From assembly GCA_950295325.1 (NCBI GenBank), contig OX485803.1:58171554-58235553 (forward strand): a stretch of 64,000 nt of DNA, given 5' to 3'. This DNA is from Polytrichum commune (Eukaryota > Streptophyta > Polytrichopsida > Polytrichales > Polytrichaceae). The notes below the pieces were generated by a model. The model searched no databases. It was not told where the DNA came from and saw only the letters and a list, made by a program, of their open reading frames with translations. This document shows positions 14,776-53,662 of the stretch, one piece after another. The position numbers and the translations under genes are program-made. The first letter of the stretch is position 1. Each line of letters starts with the position of its first letter.

Positions 14776-15013
14776 CTAGATGCCCACCTCTTTGAGTTGT
14801 CCTCTACCACTATTACCAAGGTAAAATGGGTCTAGTAAAACCATGACCCTCATAGGTTTGTGGTTAATTCATCTCAAAGTGGGCCCCTCTAGACTAATTT
14901 GAGGCCTTTGATGCTAATTACAGGGTCACATTCTCTTTAAAAAGGAAATTCTAACAACGCTTTCGCCTCGGATAATAGTGGTCGGAGGTTGATGCAAAGA
15001 GGTGGGTGTCTAG
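14776..15013. mobile_element. MITE family D, copy 2 (uninterrupted)
   Basis: Ends CTAGATGCCCACCTCTTTGA and, inverted, CTAGACACCCACCTCTTTGC. This 238-bp copy lacks the family C insertion found in the 7.7-8.2 kb copy and gives its pre-insertion state. Confidence 0.75.
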
Positions 15014-16004
15014 TCCTGGCCCACTCGGTCACAAACCTAATGGAGTTAGTTGGAAATTTAAACCCTAACTACTTTTGGAGCCCGCTTCAAGCCTCTCATG
15101 TGTCATACGGTATTCCTAAAATTATACAATGTGATTGCTTAGTAATAAGTGAAAGCTTGTTATCTTCCACTGTTATTTTTCTTGACAATCGGATACAAAA
15201 CTACTTGGAGATGAAGATTTCATATCATCCAATATAAAGAGAGGATACACATCTACTTGAACATGCTAAAACTGGCTTGGGATTCGTGGCGTCTACATAA
15301 ACTCATCATGGATGAAGAGGCTCATGTTAAAAAAACCTCCCCTACAAGATTGAAGGCCGGTCCATTCCAATTTGATAACACTAGACTAATTCAGAGTCTC
15401 GGACTCTACTTCCAGGATCAAATTGTTTGAAAACAATCATTTATATGTTATAATAGAATTGAGTACATTTTCATCTTTACAAAGGATGAGTTTACGTAGA
15501 CACCACAAATCCCCAGCTGGTAAAAGCGTTAAGGGGTTGATATTCACAGCAATTCATAGGCGGCCAGGTTGGAAATTGGCAGTAGGCTAGTCCTTGTATC
15601 TTAGCATTCACGGGCAGAGATACTTTGGGATTTTTTTGTGGGTCATTCAATGAATTTCAATGCTGTCATGTTCGAGATCAGATTTGCTGGGCGCACTACT
15701 AATCGCCTCTCCTCTCCCACTAAGCAATGGGCACTTTGAAGCTTTCAGTCACATCCAACACTAACTTAAAGCCCTCCTCCTTACCCTCATTTTGTTTTTA
15801 ATCATCTCCCCTCCCTTTCACTTCCCATGGCTGCCAACCCTAGCTGGCTGCGTACTACATACGGCAACAGCTGGGGCAGAAATATCAATGTCCATTTCAA
15901 GGTGAGCCATTACTCTACGCAACACCACGTAGAGGGTGCTAGAACTGTGATTTAAAGCGACAAGCATGTATATAGTATTGTTAAGCTGATAAACTTTGAA
16001 TTTT
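15014..16004. other. Gene-less stretch
   Basis: No gene or RNA recognised. Confidence 0.4.
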
Positions 16005-16155
16005 GTCATTGGCAAATGAAAGGGGATTCCAACGCATCAAAGTATGTCTTATTTGGATTTTGTATGCATAAGTTATAAGGATTCAAAGTGTTATTGGTAG
16101 ATGATTCAAAATCATCAGAGAGGTATGATGTTAAGATGGTGAACATTCTCCAAAG
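16005..16155 (+). repeat. Direct repeat, left copy
   Basis: Aligns with 17576-17735: 'gggattccaacgcatcaaag / gggactccaatgcaccgaag', 'tattggtagatgattcaaaa / tattggtagatgatccaaaa', 'aagatgg / aaggtgg'. The two copies bracket about 1.4 kb containing the CpG-richer block. They could be old LTR ends or a segmental duplication; no LTR-retrotransposon gene lies between them. Confidence 0.6.
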
Positions 16156-16624
16156 CAATGTGTACTTATCGTGCGAGAGTTTAGGGTGTTGGTTTTAGCA
16201 CCCTCTTCCTTGTTCAGTTGTAAGTGGTCTCTCACTTGATATACGTTCATGTGAGTTTATATCCAAGTAGAGAAACCTTCTAGAAAGTGCTCCTTGTGGT
16301 TTTCTATCTTCACATAGAATGGTTGATCTAAAATCTCGTTTTTTTGGGGGTCCATGAGCAACCCCATGACCCCCCATAAAACGACTTGAGTAGGTGGTTG
16401 TCTTGTTGCTCTTGCAACTCACAATCCACTAATTTAATCTCTTGGCATACAAACAAGCATATCAACACCTTTTTCTGTAAAACATCTAACAAATGCAATC
16501 ACAATTGTTCACTCAACCAATACATGAGTGGAGAACCCTTCCAACAATTCCATGTTTAAAAAATAAAAATAATAATCTACGTTTAGAGAACGTTTCATCC
16601 GTAACCTCCAATCTTATATATAAT

Positions 16625-16760
16625 GGAAGATATGGTGGTGTACGTGGCCGTTGCCCTATCATTCCCCATTGTTCTAAAAGGAGTGAGGAGTCCATTAAAG
16701 TGACGTGTCATATGCATGGTGCCAAAAACTGACACGACACCAGTCCATACTGATCTATGT
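16625..16760 (+). repeat. Dispersed repeat shared with 19.02-19.15 kb
   Basis: Both copies contain 'gacgtgtcat/gatgtgtcat' followed by 'ggtgc' and then 'ccagtccatact / gggtccatact'. Type unknown. Confidence 0.45.
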
Positions 16761-16899
16761 CCAAAAGCAGATCCATTTACGTGCCATAAACGACTCCCGT
16801 GTGAGGATGCATTGTTGTCGTTCGTACCACAACTCATCATCCACTCTCATCTCGCTGATCATGTAACCCATCGCTCTAAACATCGACAAAACAACAAAC

Positions 16900-17480
16900 C
16901 CTAAAATCAAACCATGCAATCAAATGCACATCAACCGTCGATCTTGCGAGGGACCTTCTTTCGTTCCGTTGATTGCGTTCTCGGGACCACATTGCCGATT
17001 GGGTGGCTCTACCCTAGTGACCCCCTCAAACACGCTACGGTAAAGCGAAAGCCATATTGCAACCCCGGCTGCGTTGTGGTCCATTGCTGTTACCATCGGC
17101 CAAATCGTAAAGGTTGGTAAAGGGGGTGGTCCTAATGGAGACCATCGACGTTAACCCCTCCTTTCTCGACGCTTCTTTGGGAGTCCCCACGCCTCTTAAA
17201 GGTGAGCCCGGGAGCGTGACTCGAAGACGAGGGCCTTGCCGAGTCTTCCAAGTCTTCAAAGGTTTTCAAGCCGGTCGGAGTCACGTACCCACTTTCACCA
17301 CGACTCGTGCTTTCGGGGTTTAGGGTTTCACCGGGCGTGGCTTGCATGATCCCGCGAAGGGGGGGGGGGGGGTTTCCCGGACTCTCAAAACGGTCTAAAA
17401 GTGGGTTCCGTGAGTCACGAGGTTGTTCGGCCTTCCGTTCAACTTTCAAGAGCCTCGTTCTCACCAAAGAGGTCACGTGG
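16900..17480. other. CpG-richer, less decayed block
   Basis: CpG is conspicuously more frequent than in the flanks (cgtcgatcttgcg, cgttccgttgattgcg, gaccatcgacgttaac). Long open frames overlap on both strands (minus 17132-17587, 151 codons; plus 17307-17591), a pattern GC-rich DNA gives by chance. Neither frame shows a domain. Candidate explanations are a recently inserted sequence not yet mutated by cytosine methylation, or a gene fragment. A G14 run lies at 17359-17372 and a G11 run at 17561-17571. Confidence 0.4.
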
Positions 17481-17575
17481 ACAGTGCATAAACCGTCGAT
17501 TAAAGCGATTAGTGTAGATGTTGTTATTGGAGACAACAAGTGCTTTTTTTGGTGGTGGTTGGGGGGGGGGGTTAT

Positions 17576-17735
17576 TGTCGTTAGCAAGTGACTAGGGACT
17601 CCAATGCACCGAAGTGTGTTTTTTTACTTGAGTTGTGTATGCAACGGTTATAAGAGTGTGGAGTTTTATTGGTAGATGATCCAAAACCACCAACATGACA
17701 ACTCGGTGTCAAGGTGGCCGATTGTTCTCATAATC
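17576..17735 (+). repeat. Direct repeat, right copy
   Basis: Partner of 16005-16155, same orientation. Confidence 0.6.
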
Positions 17736-19290
17736 GATACCCATAGTTTCCTAGCAAGTTGTTTCACATAAAATATATAAGTAGAAGGGTGCTTGAATTT
17801 CTAGGAATTTATCGACATGGTTTGCCTAATTGTTTTTTTCCCTAAAGATCAAACGACCTCTAATGATTTTCTTTCAATTAAGTACATTTCAGACGTGGGT
17901 AGGTACTAATGTTGTATCATATTGGCTTTCTTAAATGAAAGCAAAGAAGTTTCTCATTTAAAAAATACCAATAGGATGTGGGTATTTGATGTTTTTTTAT
18001 GAAATTTATACCATTCAATCTATACACCATGCAAGAACCTTCATATCTAGGTAAAATCGCCCTGCTATCAATATGGTGTAGTATGCAGTGTCTATGTTTG
18101 ACAAATTTCATTTGACGTTCAACTTCAAATCCAAAGTGTCACGTGACGTTCTTAAAAACAAAAATGAATGTCAATTGACATCTACATTTTATTCCAAAAT
18201 GTCACCTCAATTTTAGCTTACACAATATTTTAGGAAAACTAATATTTTGAATAATCAATATGCAATCTTGATTCGTAATTAAAAAAAAAACTTATCAATC
18301 GGGCGTAAGTATCCTTCGGTCTTGCATGTTTCTCCAAATGTTGAAGATGGTAGCCCAATCCATTGCATAAATTTCGAGCCCACAGATAGAAACCCACATA
18401 AGAGCATCAAGGGTCTTCAAGTTCAACCTATTGCGCAATTGGCTTTTGATTGCATTTTGTTTGGAAAATCCTCTTTCACATTGCCTCTCCTTGTTCCCAG
18501 TTAGTCTCGCTATCTCTGATCACCGTCTCAACTCCCGGTTACAAAGAAAATTGAAGCTGAATTTAAGTATGTAAGTGAGTTTAGGAAGTTCTCCTAATGT
18601 TATGGGTACTTGATACTTGAGCCGCAGTTTATAGTACTCAAGTTGCCTACTAATACATGTCATTTGAATTTCTAGTGTGTCAATTGACATGTGGTTTTTT
18701 TCTTCACAAGTCACAGTACGTGTCAACTTCTAAAATGTGCGTGTCAATTGACGTGCATTTATTTTTTGTGCAAGTTTTTGCGTGTCAAAAGAGAAAAACT
18801 TGCAAAAACTTTGTCAAACATATACACTGGTAGTATGGTACCGACCCAAATAGTAACCCAAGTATACAAATTCTCTCACCTGGCCACTACCATCAGATAC
18901 CAATGTTTGAACAATTTTACAAATTTAATACCCACACGTAGATTCTTTACACCAAGATTGGTGTCGATTACTAATACTATGCATTCACCTATATATATGA
19001 GACGTTATCTACTATATAGAGGACAACGTGATGATGATGGTGAGGCTATTCCCCCACCGTTCAGGCACCGTTTTGAAAAGGTTTGGGGGACTGCATTGAA
19101 ATGATGTGTCATACACGGGTGCAAATAGTCGGGACGGCATGGGTCCATACTAGTGTAAGTACGTATAAGAAACCATTATAAGTTATTGTCCACTTTCGAT
19201 GTACCCACCTTAAATATCCGGCAAAGATTCACTTCACCCCCTTTCACTCTGCACCTACTTTTGTAGTACATGAAGCACGCCTATAAACAA
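17736..19290. other. Gene-less stretch
   Basis: Around 18150-18200 and 18670-18790 the phrase 'tgtcaattgac' recurs (18170, 18677, 18743), suggesting a small repeat family centred on the CAATTG palindrome. No gene supported. Confidence 0.4.
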
Positions 19291-19630: not shown

Positions 19631-20007
19631 CTGAGGGTGACTTTTCATGTAGGTTGCTAGCCCACTATATTCTAGATAATGATGGGTGGGAGGTGTTCAC
19701 ATGTAGATAAGCACAAGCCACCAACCAACCAAGTTCCGGTGGCCTACTAGAATGTGGAGGCATGTGGACATTGATCGCTAGACTTCCATGCGTTCACTAA
19801 TGCACTTTTTAACCTACAAGTGTTGATCACTGGAGCATTGAAGACCGGTTTTAAAAGGAGAAGGAGGTTAGTAGGTGGGCCCATATTTGAGAAGATGAGA
19901 GTAGCTAGTTGGCACATATGAACCTTACCCCACCAGATTTGGGCGGGTTTGTCCATATTCCCACTAGAATATGATGGGCGAGCAACCTACATAGAAACTC
20001 ACCCTAA
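19631..20007. mobile_element. MITE family B, copy 1
   Basis: Ends CTGAGGGTGACTTTTCATGT and, inverted, CTTAGGGTGAGTTTCTATGT, continuing through 'aggttgct..cccactatattctag' in inverted form for about 40 bp. About 377 bp. Non-coding; the short frames inside are incidental. Confidence 0.8.
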
Positions 20008-20394
20008 GATAATAGTGGGTTAGAGGAGTTCTCATGTAGTTAAGAACAAGCCGCCATCCAACCACAATCTGGTGGTCTGCTAGAATGTGGAGGGCCATAG
20101 ACACGGGCCGCTAGACTTCCGTGTGCCCACTAAAGAAACTTTAACCTACAAGTGCCAGTCACCGAAGGAGAAAGACCAGTTGAAGACTCAAGAGAACCAA
20201 TGTTTGCCTAGAACTCCATCCTTGGTAACCGGGAGGAGGAGGTTAGTAAGTGGGCCCATACTTGACAAGATGGGAGTAGCTAGTTGGCACACACGAACCC
20301 TAGCCCACCAGATTCCCTCTACACTTGGACGGGTTTGTCCTTATTCACACTAGAATATGATGGGCAAGCGGCCTACATGAAAACTCACCCTGAG
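20008..20394. mobile_element. MITE family B, copy 2 (tandem)
   Basis: Adjoins copy 1, sharing the 'ccctaag' junction, and repeats it at recognisable similarity: 'ggtctgctagaatgtggagg', 'cgctagacttccgtg', 'taacctacaagtgccagtca', 'gtgggcccatacttg', 'tagctagttggcaca'. It ends 'gaaaactcaccctgag'. The left terminus is truncated. Confidence 0.78.
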
Positions 20395-21089
20395 TCCACT
20401 AATCCCATCTACCTTAATATATTTGAAGTTTTTGATAAAATCCATTTGTGAGCCGCAAGGAATGTCTTTCATTTTGAAACTCAAGCTCTTGGGCACGTGG
20501 ATTTTCTTGCATAAAAAATTAAAGGTATTCGGTTGTTGTTTGGTGCTTTTCCTAATCAGACACCCATATTCGATTGATGTATGGTCATGTGAGGATCCAA
20601 AAAAAAAACATCACAAAGACACACATGTTTACCTAAGTTGATTACCTGAGTACTCCACACTCATCAGTGAACACAATTGAAAATATCTATGTATTTCAAT
20701 CAAAAAATCCACAAACATGCACATCTGATAACCACGACGAAATCACGAGACATCCGATTTTTGCTCAGGCTTCATCGTAAATTTCAGTGAAGCAAGACAC
20801 ACGTGTCATCGTGCAAATGGCAATCGGTAGAAGGTGGAGAAGAGCATGAAAAACGGAAGCAAATAACATACATGTATACCACTGCCACTGCCACACACTT
20901 GGTCAGTGAGTGAGAGGAGATGGATCTGACATTCAGCCGTCGCACATTGATGTATAGTAATAAGTGGGTTTCCATGTGTTGCAAACAGAGCCCATACAGA
21001 GCCTGCCTTACTAGACACATGGGAGGTCTTATCGAAAATTAAAGAATCCACGAGCAACATCAAGTAAGTTGGCTGCAAATACAGGACGA
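20395..21089. other. Gene-less stretch
   Basis: No supported gene. Overlapping minus frames at 20784-21078 are short and motif-free. Confidence 0.4.
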
Positions 21090-47402: not shown

Positions 47403-48302
47403 TTAGGGTTGTTGATGGTGGAGAGGGTGTGTTCTTGCATACATATATTGACCACCCTCAACCCACCCACCCCGTCAACAGACCGTCACAACCGCCCAAT
47501 GTAACCCAACCACCCCTTGTAAGTAATTGTATTAGTTCAAGTTATAGATGCAACCACCAACATGTAGTAATAGCCTTCGGGTAGAAAGACTCTTCATGTT
47601 TGCTTGTCTCCTTGGGGGATGACATATGTATTTATCTGTCTATCTATCTTACATCCATAAAAAGTAATTCTATCATATTCATGTTTACAAGAAGGTGTAT
47701 TTATAGGTTATATTAAATCTTTTAAAATTCGACAATTTTGGTGTGATATGTTTTTTTTGGATACCCCAAACATGCATGTACCCAGAGTGGAAAATTCAAG
47801 ATTATCATGGCCGATTTTTGGACCTCTAGATGCTCCACATTTACTTACACCTTTATCAAATTATATTGGAAATCATTTAAACCAATAAACAATGTGAAAA
47901 TTTGTTATTAATGTGACACTAACGGTGTAAAAAGTCCCACGGAGGGTCCTCATTGTAAACTCCTCTCGGATTTATTTCCTAATTAAATCGATTAAAATGA
48001 ACCGTACTACCATACCAATTAACACATGATAGTTATCTTCTTGAGTGAGGGCGCCCACATGTCATGTAATAGTTGGATGGAACACATGAAAAAGTTGACG
48101 TGGCATGGACGTGCACAAGAGCCCGTGTGAAATTAAATGCCACATGCTCCAAGAGACATGCGAGTTTTGGCAGTATTCAGGGTGATGATAGATAGTGGTA
48201 TCTTCCGGCACACAAATCACCTACCTCTCTCCAGATCATGGCCTTTAAGTTACTAGGGGGTCATCACGAGTACACCCACATGCAATGCAAGCAACAATGA
48301 AC
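47403..48302. other. Gene-less stretch with a TCTA-like tail
   Basis: (TCTA)n-like tail at 47635-47650 ('ctgtctatctatctt') may mark the end of another SINE-like insertion whose head I could not identify. 48030-48110 repeats part of 38055-38140. Confidence 0.4.
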
Positions 48303-48500
48303 AGGGAGAAGTGGCTGCTAGTTACAGATGAACCAGTTGAGTTTGAGAAATAAGCGGTTGAAGCTCGAATCTCCAGGAAAAATTACTCATCATCTTAGAG
48401 AAATGGATGGAATATACCCCAATTTAATAGAGGAAAATTGCAAGATGTTGACATGTAACCGGAAACACTAGGATTTCGACCGATGATGCCCAAAACCCTT
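48303..48500 (-). mobile_element. MITE family G, copy 4
   Basis: 'gctagttacagatgaaccag', 'ttgagtttgagaaataagcgg', 'ggaatataccc', 'aagatgttgacatgtaaccgg', 'aacactaggatttcgacc'. It borders the GC-richer island on its left. Confidence 0.7.
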
Positions 48501-49131
48501 GGCCGACAATGCCAAGCAACAACGAAATCGACCAAAACAGCCCCAGACAGGAATTAGGCAGGAATTTCATACCCAAGCTAAGCTGTTGGTGATGTTGGGG
48601 AAAGTGGACGCGTTCAATTACTTGGAATGTACTTAACTGTACTTAAGCGGCAGGAATGCATTTAATCCGTTTGCAGATGTGAATCAACTTGGGTTTCTCC
48701 TTCCCCCCCAAACTACGTGCACTGTATATTACATTAATCTGACACACATTGTTAAGGCGTTGGAGACATCCAAACCAAATAATTCAATGAGACCTGCCAT
48801 GTTCATAGTGGAAAGGACACCTTTTTCACCTGCCAGCTCAACCTTCTTCGTCTCCCCCTTCAGACAGGAAGAAACTCACCATAGCAGAGCTTGCATAGCC
48901 TATAGGCTGACATTCTTGCAGCATTTTGCATTCTGGCATTTTGCACTTTGGAGTCGGTGGACGTTAACCTCTGGGAGAACTGTTTGTCTACAAGCATCCA
49001 TCTTCTTCATCCGCTCCGCCCAACTCACGCAAGGTCGGAATGCAAACCTACCGGAAGTTTGTGTGAATGTGTAGGCTGGCCGATCAGTGAGGACATGGCG
49101 ACATGGTGCTGGAAATGCTTGCAAACCAACC

Positions 49132-49159
49132 GATCACGAATGTGAGAGCATTCGTGATC
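49132..49159. repeat. Perfect 11-bp hairpin
   Basis: GATCACGAATG (49132-49142) and CATTCGTGATC (49149-49159) pair perfectly around a 6-nt loop. Too short to be a MITE; it may be a structured RNA element or a palindromic protein-binding site in the upstream region. Confidence 0.6.
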
Positions 49160-50418
49160 ATAAGTTGTGTGCAAGGTGATTGTAATGTGAGGCGGCAATT
49201 GTAGTTGAGAGGAGGAGAGCTCTGTCTTTGTCTTTCTCTCTGTCGACTCTGTCTCTCCCACTTGTGAGTTGGATGATGATTAATTGTATTGTAAAGCAGG
49301 CGGCATTGAGTGGCTGCTTCTTGACTTGGACCACTTTGGATGGAAATGCTTGCATATAATCTGCAGTCATGAATCTGAGGGGCTCTGTCCAGTTGCCCGG
49401 GAGCCTATAACAACAATGTAGGGTTAAGCATTGGAAGCGTCTCCTCTGTCTCTTGGTCTGTCTTGTCTCGCAACCGGCCCGACTCCATGTGGCTTGGATG
49501 GTTCTTAATTAGCAGCAGTTGCTACTTGATGACATGGATCACCCAAGACGGAAATCGCGTGAATCCGTCGTGCAATCTATCTCGAGTTATGCAGAACCAT
49601 GGAGTGTGCGAGGCAATTCTGGCTAAGAGAAAGAGAGAAAGACAGTGCTCTCGACATTGTCTCTCCCTCCAGTCGGAATCCACATTTACTGAATGTAGCA
49701 CAAAGAGTGGCTGCCTCCATTCCGTCGTGAGGCTGGTAGAGAGTGAAATGCTCATGACATGCTCCGCCGACTGACTTGCAATCACATTTTGTATGTATGT
49801 GAAGAACTGCATGTAGCATTTCCATGGATCATTTCCTTAGCGTTCATTGGGTTGAAGCTAGAGAGTTAGGCCATCTCCATGTGGCGTTCCACTTACCTTT
49901 GTCCGTAGAGCTGAAGGTGATGGTAACGGATTCCGAGCAGGTGTTCTGCTCCATGGAGTCGCGTAATCTTGTGCATCCAGTGCAATTCTTCTTAGCCTGC
50001 TGTATGTGAACCGGAGTGCACATCTCTCTAATGCAGCAGTAGGATTGGCTACTTCGATTCGGTCTCGAGGTAGCGCACATCACTGGAGGTGGAGCTAGCC
50101 ATGCCAAGTGTAGCACAGGGGAATTACGAAATGCTCACCGGCGACATGCTCCAGTGACTGATTTTCACCGCACTCTGTCTGTAGCAGCAGTGCCATATAC
50201 TTAAATGTCCACGGGATTAAGGGTGTAAGGGATTAAGGATTCCATCTCCATTTGGGCTTATATGGAGATTAAGGACTTAAGGATGCCATCTCCATGTGCC
50301 GGCTTCCGTAATACGTGACCTCTCTGGAAAGGGTGGTAAGAAAGCCACGCATTCGGACTAGGCGGCTGGTTGGTCCATTCAGTGGCTGGCTCTAAAGTGC
50401 TGCATTGTCACATAGTCG

Positions 50419-50458
50419 CCGCACAATGCCGCAAAATGACGCACTATGCCGCACTGTG
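50419..50458 (+). repeat. Four tandem decamers (CCGCAnnATG type)
   Basis: ccgcacaatg, ccgcaaaatg, acgcactatg and ccgcactgtg follow one another directly. Immediately after, at about 50466-50501, 'ctcgagatcgaccgatc' and 'ttggtcggtcgag' form an imperfect inverted repeat. Confidence 0.75.
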
Positions 50459-50920
50459 TCACTGTCTCGAGATCGACCGATCGCTCGGTTGGTCGGTCGA
50501 GGGCATTAATCTAGACACGGTACAGGAAATGTAGAGCTTGCTTCAAGAGGTGACGTAATGCAGTTAGTTCACTGCTTCAATTCGTCCATCTCCAGATAGT
50601 GAGCCAGACATACTTCCCTCACCTCTCGATTTTCCAAGTGGAAACCTTTGTCATGTGCAGAACCTATGTGCCGAGTCACCTTACCGCGCCTGTACATGCC
50701 TGGCCTACACCTAATCCCGTGCAACCCTGTGACTCTGTGACGTCTAGTTCTGCGTTTTAGATCGATCGGTACTACTCCCCGGGGCTGTAGTTTGAAAATG
50801 TATGTAAAGGGTTTAGCTTGCTGCTGCATGCTACTGTGGCTGGTGTTTACCTAATCTCTTGCAACGTTCATTCATGCCAACGTTCCGACTGACTCTGCGT
50901 ACTTAATTGACTCTCTGCAT

Positions 50921-50943
50921 TTCATGATTATTCCAGGTCGCGC
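50921..50943 (+). other. Possible 3' splice site upstream of the ORF
   Basis: Pyrimidine-rich 'gactctctgcatttcatgat' runs into 'tattccag|gtcgc' about 40 bp before the ORF's ATG. It fits a plant acceptor and would make the 318-codon frame part of a terminal exon, but no matching donor was identified. Confidence 0.3.
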
Positions 50944-50975
50944 AACCTGCAGTCAGCGACTCAGGCCGATCAAGG

Positions 50976-51932
50976 ATGTCTTCCAGCGACGACCTTTTTT
51001 ATTTAAATCCCCGCCGCACCATCGCGGTATGGTGCTGGGCCCAGATGGATGCCACCATGGAGGGAGTAACCCACCTTCTGTTTCTCCTAACGACCCGAAA
51101 TCTGTGGAATGCTGGGATTCCACCCCAGCTGGAGGGTTGGGGCCCGGGCTTCCACCGTCGTGGCGGATCCCTGTTTCTCGAGCGCCTGTGGCTTTACCAT
51201 GCGGCCATGATTCTGCACTTGGTGGATGACTTTTCTGACCCATGGCAGATCCTGGACGAGGGGCGTCAGCCTGGCCAGGTGTGGCCGGGGGTGCTACGTC
51301 TGCTCAGAAGCTTCTTCTTCCCGGAGCAGCCGATCCGATCGCCTCCACCCGTTCCATCCCGCCGGCGAGCTGCGCCAACGGAGCCTATTTATATAATATC
51401 CCTACCGACTATCACCGAGGTCTCCTCAGATGAGGAGCTCTTTGATGAGTACTCACCGAGGTGCACCGATCATCGCGATGCACCGCCCAGTGTAACTGAA
51501 TCGGAGGTCTCCGAATTCGAACTAGTCGAGGAGGATGCGGAGGAGGCAGAGCAACTGATCTTTGGGCCTATGTCTCCAAACCACAGTCCACGTCCTGAAA
51601 CCATGGCAATTGCAGATGAAGATCTCCATGGATCAGTACTCCCCATGACAACTAAGCCGCATCCTCCTCATGCGATCTTTTCATTCGATGAGGAGTTCTC
51701 CGGACCCATCTCGCCGCCGAGGGCGAATCCTGTCATGATTGTTACTTTTCCAGATGATGACCACTTTGCACCGATGCCGCCGGTGGAAACTAGAGAGGTT
51801 GTCCACGGAGTTGACCACTTTCCACCGCTGCCGCCGGTGGTAATTACCGAGATCCTCGACGAAGAGGAACTCTTTCCGCCGCTGCCGCCGGTGACAGTTA
51901 CCGAAATCTTTCTCGACTCCGACTTGGCTTGA
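50976..51932 (+). CDS. Unknown protein with acidic/aromatic/proline repeats (318 residues)
   Basis: This is the longest, most gene-like frame in the window. The ATG has A at -3. It ends at TGA 51930-51932. I recognise no family. Residues about 15-115 are Trp/Leu-rich and could fold (TRNLWNAGIPPQLEGWGPGF; LWLYHAAMILHLVDDF; VWPGVLRLLRSFFFPEQP). Residues 120-135 are Pro/Arg-rich. From about residue 145 the protein is acidic and carries a degenerate repeat, roughly [IV]-T-E-[IV]-x-x-D-[DE]-E-[LH]-F-x-P-[LM]-P-P: 146-161, 234-248, 255-269, 274-287, 290-305 and a truncated 308-318, with a weaker copy at 191-201. The acidic-hydrophobic pattern recalls transcriptional activation segments or docking motifs (inference). 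It may be a terminal exon or a complete small gene. CpG-rich third positions differ from the AT-rich flanks. Confidence 0.6.
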   Translation: MSSSDDLFYLNPRRTIAVWCWAQMDATMEGVTHLLFLLTTRNLWNAGIPPQLEGWGPGFHRRGGSLFLERLWLYHAAMILHLVDDFSDPWQILDEGRQPGQVWPGVLRLLRSFFFPEQPIRSPPPVPSRRRAAPTEPIYIISLPTITEVSSDEELFDEYSPRCTDHRDAPPSVTESEVSEFELVEEDAEEAEQLIFGPMSPNHSPRPETMAIADEDLHGSVLPMTTKPHPPHAIFSFDEEFSGPISPPRANPVMIVTFPDDDHFAPMPPVETREVVHGVDHFPPLPPVVITEILDEEELFPPLPPVTVTEIFLDSDLA

Positions 51933-52042
51933 GATTCTTGGAGGGAAGGGAGGCTGGCTGGCTGGCTGGACACCCTCATCACATACTTACCGTCTTCCGA
52001 CCTTCGTCCGCCTTTACATGTACATGGGCAATATCAGCACGC

Positions 52043-52064
52043 AGATAGATAGATAGATAGATAG
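52043..52064 (+). repeat. (AGAT)n microsatellite
   Basis: 'agatagatagatagatag' some 110 bp after the ORF stop, possibly within its 3' UTR. (AGAT)n tails also resemble the tail of the window's SINE, but no SINE body precedes it. Confidence 0.9.
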
Positions 52065-52065
52065 A

Positions 52066-53026
52066 CGACTCACTGCAGGCACAACACCTGCTTCAGAATA
52101 GTGTCCATTTCTAGAGTTTCAGGTCCAGGATGAACACCTTGTCATTCCCTTATGTCTTTACGTGCAATCCCAAATGCATCCACTACTGTAGTGTAAGACT
52201 GTTGTTAGGCGCTGCAATGAGAGATACTCTGATTGTGGAGCACTACACTGTATTCAGTGTCACGCACACTATTTTGCAAAAGGCCTAAACTGGATGCCTG
52301 GAGGTCTCAAAGTGTTGCACCTGCTAATCATCAATATGACACTATTTGTCAACCTAAGTAGAAAAATTTCAAGTAAAAATTTACCTATAGTATGACATCT
52401 ACCGTAACATATTGGGAGACTTGAGATTCTAGTTTTGCGTCTTAGTTTGCAAGGGGAAGATGTTGTTGAGCATTCTAATGTCAAGTGTCGATAATGTACA
52501 CTTTAGTCAACTTGTAGACCATTATGCAAGATAGGCATAGAGCCCATACCACTATCGAACATACTCATGCCAAGATATTAGGAAGCTCACTTGAACGCCG
52601 AGTGTCATGAGGTGACACTAATGACGAAGTTGTTGATCATTAGTGCAACCTAACATATGCCTCGAACTAGGGTAAGTGACACTGTTACACATGTCACACT
52701 GAATACCATAAGCGTCGTAGCACCCATGGAACATGGTTTGAATGAGTATAATGCGCGATACGTTCTGTGGTTGGTCGGACACACACACCATAGCCGAAGA
52801 ATCTTGGCGTTGTGTTTGAATAGTAGGTGACATGAGTACGACCTCCTGTTGAGGACACCAGTGTGCAACTAGATATGATATGTTTATGGATGATGGCTTC
52901 ATCAGTGGCATGATCCAGTTGTTCCTCAATACGGCTCCCTTGGAGGTGGAGAACTGTTGGGTGAATCGAAGTTACTCCGAGTCTTCCAGCGTAATTGATG
53001 ATTGAATGATGGCTGCATGCTGGTAC
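52066..53026. other. Gene-less stretch
   Basis: No gene supported. A minus frame at 52618-52929 (103 codons) shows no domain. The boundary between the GC-richer island and AT-rich DNA falls at about 52.1 kb. Confidence 0.4.
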
Positions 53027-53662
53027 ACCCTACTACTGTGTCTTCCATCCACTCACCCTGGCAGTGCCGTTGCCTTTGTACAAGTCAATAGGCACCATAA
53101 ACATCTTTGTTTAATACTGTGGGCCACACTATTTATCATCATCAGCCCACATTAATTGTCTTGTGATGATGATTTGAAGGGAGGCTAGCTAGAGAGGGTG
53201 TCACATGGCACTTGGTGTAGCTACATCACAAGTCACGAAGACCATTGTGGTTAACATGACACACTGACTCCAATCTCACATTTCATAATAATAATAATAA
53301 TAATATAGGTGATGCACTTAGAGGAGTTACAGTTCTTGACATAGGTACTTGCCATTGTGTCATCCATCCACCTGTCTTTGGATATGTTGTTGTCTTTGTA
53401 CAAAGTCAATAGGCGCACTAAACATCCATGTTGAATAGTGTGGGCCACACTATATATCATCGTCAACTCACATTGATTGTCTTGCAATGACTTGGGGGCA
53501 AGCTAGAGAGGGTGTGACATGGCACTTGGTGCAGCTATATGACAAATCACGAAGGCTGCTCTAATTAACATGGCACACTGATTTGAATCATGCATTAAAT
53601 CAAATATTTAGTGTAGCTATTGCATTTACAGGAAGTTATAGCTTACATTCTTGGCATATAAG
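53027..53662 (+). repeat. Tandem duplication, unit about 0.32 kb
   Basis: 53027-53345 and 53346-53662 align in order: 'tttgtacaagtcaataggca / tttgtacaaagtcaataggc', 'gtgggccacactat' in both, 'gctagagagggtgt', 'acatggcacttggtg', 'gacacactgac / ggcacactgat', 'gatgcacttagaggagttac / attgcatttacaggaagtta'. An (AAT)n expansion (53285-53305) occurs only in the first copy. Non-coding. Confidence 0.85.

Follow-up and report, generated by a model that had tools for sequence, protein, structure and literature searches.

A very probable single-copy gene with a short C-terminal array of acidic, proline-cored units in gene-poor, plant-like DNA apparently eroded by methylation

PPLP is the ligand core of class II WW domains, and short proline motifs of this kind also arise by chance. 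The FY-type ligands of the FCA WW domain are an example from plants: they carry PPLPP cores near the C-terminus, and FY itself is a WD40 protein. The HUA2/HULK proteins of plants have an RPR domain, among others, and PPLP repeats in the C-terminal region that are implicated in protein-protein interactions, according to PMC4283595. A further class of proline-cored ligand is bound by the EVH1 domain of Ena/VASP; PMC8789275 gives its motif as [FWYL]PXPhiP and states that acidic flanks can raise the affinity of the ligand.

The protein that we describe here has 318 residues, and it shares with HUA2/HULK the repeated PPLP-type cores in the C-terminal region. Unlike those proteins, it has its cores in acidic, tandem units of 18 aa, and neither an RPR domain nor any other Pfam family was found in the whole protein or its halves at E<=10. 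Thus, RPR plus C-terminal PPLP repeats, the combination that marks HUA2/HULK, does not occur in it. The same lack of any Pfam domain sets it apart from the WD40 protein FY. Its gene lies in a window of 64 kb (the whole stretch of DNA analysed, positions 58171554-58235553) on a 77.85-Mb contig of an assembly that comprises 408 Mb in 64 contigs.

50976..51932, + strand: coding frame, 318 aa plus stop (openness, period-3 power, single copy; ATG context by eye)

The first-pass annotation had pointed to a long, CpG-rich, gene-like frame at this place. Both coordinates and translation were reproduced, and the frame far exceeds in length the other six of the seven ORFs with 120 aa or more that the window holds, the next having 161 aa. 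Its richness in CpG stands insofar as its 2-kb segment ranks first of 32 both in GC content (53%) and in CpG o/e (0.83), with 16001-18000 close behind at a CpG o/e of 0.81. By eye, an A occupies position -3 of the ATG. From stop to stop the frame is open for 334 codons. Order-2 simulations based on the 48-53 kb island described below never attained this length in 1000 trials (maximum 324); with the 1005-base open stretch as the training sequence, 2 of 1000 did. The period-3 power, a measure independent of openness, is 7.81; in the 610 windows of the same length taken from the rest of the 64 kb, it averages 0.96 and never exceeds 3.03. Residues 1-130 have the lowest value of the three parts of the frame (2.85), followed by residues 131-252 (4.80) and 253-318 (5.71); the first, second and third codon positions have a GC content of 65, 45 and 60%. 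Residues 131-252 belong to the acidic tail and precede its repeats, and their strong periodicity therefore marks the tail as a whole as coding. Given its openness, its period-3 power and the retention of CAG/CTG sites around it, the frame is very probably a real coding gene and deserves a place in an annotation.

48001..53000, no strand: gene island of about 5 kb that keeps its CWG (CAG/CTG) sites (CWG o/e per kb)

In the window as a whole, CpG o/e is 0.49, and CAG and CTG reach 0.37 and 0.39 of what a first-order model predicts. Such a double depletion is the residue to be expected of long-term methylation at CG and CHG, and for this reason we read the genome as plant-like. The five 1-kb windows of 48001-53000 have CWG o/e values of 1.06, 1.03, 1.34, 1.10 and 0.99, the five highest of the 64; values outside range from 0.09 to 0.93, with 0.80 in the kilobase that starts at 53001. 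We infer that 48001-53000 is an unmethylated genic region. An HLH-like frame on C7 (L007), which scores 20.5 bits with Pfam HLH, just below the cut-off of 20.7, served as a yardstick. The 239 CWG sites of that entire locus are fewer than the shuffle mean of 305. Of the 200 of them that were listed, the first 3.6 kb contain 20 and the following 4.4 kb contain 180. Because the sites cluster in this manner, CWG retention seems to accompany genes in this genome, as judged from one yardstick locus. The 40 kb of flanking sequence (L008-L011) hold seven ORFs with 120 aa or more, none longer than 191 aa; by ORF length, the surroundings thus look gene-poor. The computed evidence supports a single-copy, protein-coding gene, set in plant-like chromosomal DNA that is poor in genes and eroded by methylation.

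Elsewhere in the window, CWG o/e is also raised at 15001-16000 (0.93) and 20001-21000 (0.72), amid depleted DNA, and no open stretch of more than 103 codons overlaps either kilobase. On the minus strand, 17135-17623 is a 163-codon open stretch in a kilobase with a CpG o/e of 0.89 yet a CWG o/e of 0.14; it has no match in Pfam at E<=1.

The first-pass annotation had named a repeat-family consensus, scattered over the genome, as what the frame might otherwise be. This proved not to be so for the protein or for the surrounding 3.6 kb of DNA. The 318-aa protein matches itself alone in the 408-Mb assembly at E<=0.001, and residues 1-135 match themselves alone at E<=10, with two candidates scored. 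The 3.6 kb from 48601 match themselves and three places that share a piece of about 90 nt (about 50522-50611). These copy numbers are lower bounds; with one copy found, the frame is not a dispersed repeat or a transposon family within the reach of the search. The hunt for relatives covered the viral contigs of IMG/VR, GTDB genomes, phages, PDB sequences and collections of curated families. The earlier remark that the protein belongs to no recognised family agrees with this survey: Pfam, NCBIfam and PHROGs gave no match, and the PDB sequences gave a single one to the whole protein, at E 2.5. Residues 1-123 alone found nothing in Pfam or the PDB sequences at E<=10. None of the 111 pattern stretches from IMG/VR or the 280 from GTDB genomes was confirmed as a relative, and tblastn found none in phages.

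50919..50936, + strand: candidate 3' splice site, ATTTCATGATTATTCCAG/GTCGCG (by eye and pattern listing)
50522..50655, + strand: short dispersed element upstream of the ORF (search match 50522-50611; extended by eye in the alignment)

The candidate 3' splice site just upstream, one of eight YAG sites in 50700-50975, is plausible and has its end 39 bases ahead of the ATG, at 50936; an intron in the 5'-UTR is therefore possible. The element at 50522-50655 is matched over 50522-50611 at C1:10329457 (82%), C7:18278465 (78%) and C7:18278247 (76%). Its positions elsewhere are 1501-1579 in L003, 1501-1590 in L004, 1501-1582 in L005 and about 6005-6110 in L007. It measures about 90-130 nt, and the two copies on C7, a contig other than that of the window, lie just upstream of the start of the HLH-like frame or overlap it; what looks by eye like a third copy follows closely behind, maybe in an intron of that frame. 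Possibly this is a short interspersed element or a shared leader. The copies have no consistent RNA fold in common (z -2.05, -0.54, 0.67 and 0.44).

Several short repeats spaced 387-408 bases apart (families D5, D10, D13 and D15) at 49240-50167 suggest an eroded tandem duplication of about 400 bp upstream of the gene. A second such duplication lies just downstream of the island at 53082-53596, as two stretches of about 190 bp, 80-84% alike and 314-321 bases apart (D2 and D3). A 131-codon open stretch (49379-49771, + strand) also lies in the island upstream of the gene; its match to PF21904, the N-terminal domain of CAND6/7, has an E value of 0.027 and, at 15.1 bits, stays below the cut-off of 27.4, and is probably due to chance. 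Among the 84 open stretches with 80 codons or more, 20 besides the gene were scanned against Pfam; they gave this and one other weak match, PF15255 (E 0.28), which is likewise below its cut-off and was taken as chance. No Rfam family reaches its gathering score in the window, with three matches below that score in 48-53 kb, and the window holds no tRNA.

51009..51317, + strand: residues 12-114, Trp/Leu-rich N-terminal half, predicted to be mostly alpha-helical (single-sequence AlphaFold2)
51366..51929, + strand: residues 131-318, acidic Pro/Glu-rich tail, predicted to be almost structureless (charge count, AlphaFold2)

A Trp/Leu-rich N-terminus and an acidic C-terminus had been described for the protein at first pass, and the composition agrees. 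There are seven Trp and a single Lys among the 318 residues; residues 1-130 are neutral overall (net charge 0), and the 188 residues from 131 to 318 add up to -33. The sole short basic run is RRR at 129, a possible basic signal. AlphaFold2 on the single sequence returned a mean pLDDT of 39.9, with 34-60 in the block of residues 12-114; at such low values only the helix tendency is usable. A copy of the tail motif that we thought to see in the N-terminal half (MSSSDDLF...NPRR beside VSSDEELF...SPR) was rejected: the best profile match in that half lies elsewhere (p 0.11), as does the best cross-match to residues 131-252 (p 0.24). Patterns of the Atg8 and SH3 types match in places and are too common to carry weight.

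51408..51461, + strand: best marginal upstream unit-like place, residues 145-162, TITEVSSDEELFDEYSPR (profile score)
51732..51785, + strand: unit 1, residues 253-270, VMIVTFPDDDHFAPMPPV (TRF, self-match, unit comparison)
51786..51839, + strand: unit 2, residues 271-288, ETREVVHGVDHFPPLPPV (TRF, self-match, unit comparison; FPPLP and PPLP patterns)
51840..51893, + strand: unit 3, residues 289-306, VITEILDEEELFPPLPPV (TRF, self-match, unit comparison; FPPLP and PPLP patterns)
51894..51929, + strand: truncated unit 4, residues 307-318, TVTEIFLDSDLA (self-match, unit comparison)

The tail ends in a strict tandem array. TRF reports a 54-nt unit in 2.7 copies at 51749-51893, and by comparison of the units, three full ones of 18 aa and a truncated fourth adjoin without gaps. 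The self-match of the last units scores 108, whereas the maximum of 500 shuffles is 61. That the array closes in a truncated unit at the C-terminus (residues 307-318), as first described, is correct. The earlier count of at least six copies is overstated: the three full units and the fragment are secure, but those upstream are marginal. Once the last three units are removed, the highest internal score is 31, no better than that of shuffled sequences (mean 29, 95% value 38). A profile of the three units scores 16.3, 9.7, 4.3 and 3.7 at the places that start at residues 145, 208, 231 and 185, with rank-wise p values of 0.08, 0.09, 0.17 and 0.045, respectively; the 95% value of the null for the first of these is 17.3. 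Compared directly with the last full unit, residues 146-161 score 40, the 95% value of the shuffles being 43. The summed p is 0.036 for the best four places and 0.08 for the best five, uncorrected for the choice of number. These four places may be worn copies of the unit. By eye, the consensus proposed at first pass is matched in full nowhere: unit 289-306 differs from it once, with E in place of D, and residues 147-156 match only its first ten positions.

The core of the unit reads acidic-F-P-P-L-P-P-V; its FPPLPP is present twice, and unit 253-270 has FAPMPP instead. The shorter patterns fall accordingly, FPPLP at residues 282 and 300 and PPLP at 283 and 301. The cores of units 2 and 3 are identical at all synonymous sites but one, as in a young duplication. 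Between the three full units, pS is 0.31, 0.47 and 0.22, and pN is 0.36, 0.34 and 0.27; since the two are about equal, there is no sign of purifying selection on the array, in a comparison to which 18 codons per unit give little power. The earlier proposal, that repetition of the motif speaks for multivalent docking or transcription activation, is not established by the array, given the overstated copy number and this parity of pN and pS.

We favour a more modest form of docking, to which we give roughly one chance in three. The N-terminal half would provide folding, dimerisation or localisation, and the acidic tail, unstructured by prediction, would be a docking strip of low valency, on which PPLPP cores with acidic flanks would bind proline-recognition domains of the WW type or a similar one. 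In favour of this, PPLP, the core that class II WW domains bind, is present in exact form twice, plant HUA2/HULK proteins carry C-terminal PPLP repeats, and WW domains are available in the same genome. Fifteen matches were found, all above the Pfam cut-off and one with an in-frame TGA; two form a pair on C1 with starts 360 bases apart, and three of the frames were confirmed on rescanning. A reading frame on C4 combines a SacI homology domain with a WW domain, a pairing that resembles that of plant SAC9 and, like the depletion of CG and CAG/CTG, fits a plant-like genome. The WH1 domain (PF00568), by comparison, has no match in this genome, in a search to which 14 controls were also silent and in which exons were searched singly, so that domains split by introns can escape. 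Set beside the empty WH1 search, which had no working control, those 15 WW matches favour partners of the WW type, which appear to be the likeliest for the tail. Against docking, only two units have the exact PPLP core, unit 1 offering APMPP; pN (0.27-0.36) is about equal to pS (0.22-0.47) between full units; the cores of units 2 and 3 agree at synonymous sites as after a young duplication; and short proline motifs arise by chance. A literature search with the cores FPPLPP, EELFPP and PPLPPV gave nothing on plants, judged by title.

The same substitution pattern is the first argument for an explanation that needs no binding partner, and that we rank close behind and hold to be somewhat unlikely. 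The array would be a coding minisatellite that drifts almost neutrally in a young or fast-evolving gene, and any function would reside outside it, in the rest of the tail or the N-terminal half. It would account for the strict 54-nt tandem at the very 3' end, for the truncation of its last unit and for the marginal nature of the unit-like places upstream. It sits less well with the F-x-P core, which is kept behind acidic residues in all three full units, and with the period-3 power of the tail ahead of the array. A more radical possibility, that the open frame is a product of chance or decay in a GC-rich, unmethylated island, or part of a long non-coding transcript, strikes us as very unlikely. 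The want of relatives in every collection searched, save the PDB match noted above, is in keeping with it, and so are the two simulations in 1000 that reached 334 codons under the model trained on the open stretch. Against it stand a period-3 power more than twice the maximum found elsewhere, a frame intact from ATG to stop, and CWG sites that are kept at 48-53 kb as they are around the HLH-like frame.

Other readings grant the tail a function of a different kind. It may be an acidic transcription-activation domain, which we consider unlikely and place just after the minisatellite: Asp and Glu with spaced Phe and Leu (DEELF, DEEELF, DDDHF, FDEEF) would recruit coactivators, the prolines would merely hold the chain open, and the N-terminal half would join a DNA-bound partner. 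The strongly negative charge of the tail, its near lack of predicted structure, the acidic and Phe/Leu clusters visible in its sequence and the possible basic signal at 129 are all compatible with this role. Such acidic and aromatic content is unspecific by itself, however, and a crude activation-domain pattern of our own finds four places, none of them in the array. Further, Pfam reveals no DNA-binding domain at E<=10 (a partner could supply one), and one Lys and one short basic run are few. Far less probable is that the cores are EVH1 ligands, with acidic-flanked FPPLP tethering an actin regulator. Plants are not known to have Ena/VASP. FPPLP at 282 and 300 does fit [FWYL]PXPhiP, the motif given in PMC8789275, and the likeness to FP4 motif proteins extends to acidic flanks and to more than one copy. 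A WH1 partner did not turn up in this genome, in the search whose controls were silent too.

The docking tail thus remains the reading that we favour, and a stronger version of it is improbable in our judgement: a lineage-restricted gene in a methylated gene desert would have gained a new docking strip through in-frame expansion of a 54-nt unit, with copy number tuning the number of partners. If true, this would be multivalency of short motifs at a young stage, with the expansion of an acidic-Phe-Pro unit caught early. The clearer lesson concerns method: with no help from homology, CAG/CTG retention and period-3 power singled out the only convincing gene in the eroded 64 kb. Should orthologues confirm it, the locus would offer a plant protein, hitherto uncharacterised, whose compact and testable docking array varies in steps of entire 54-nt units, and would aid the study of how motif valency evolves.
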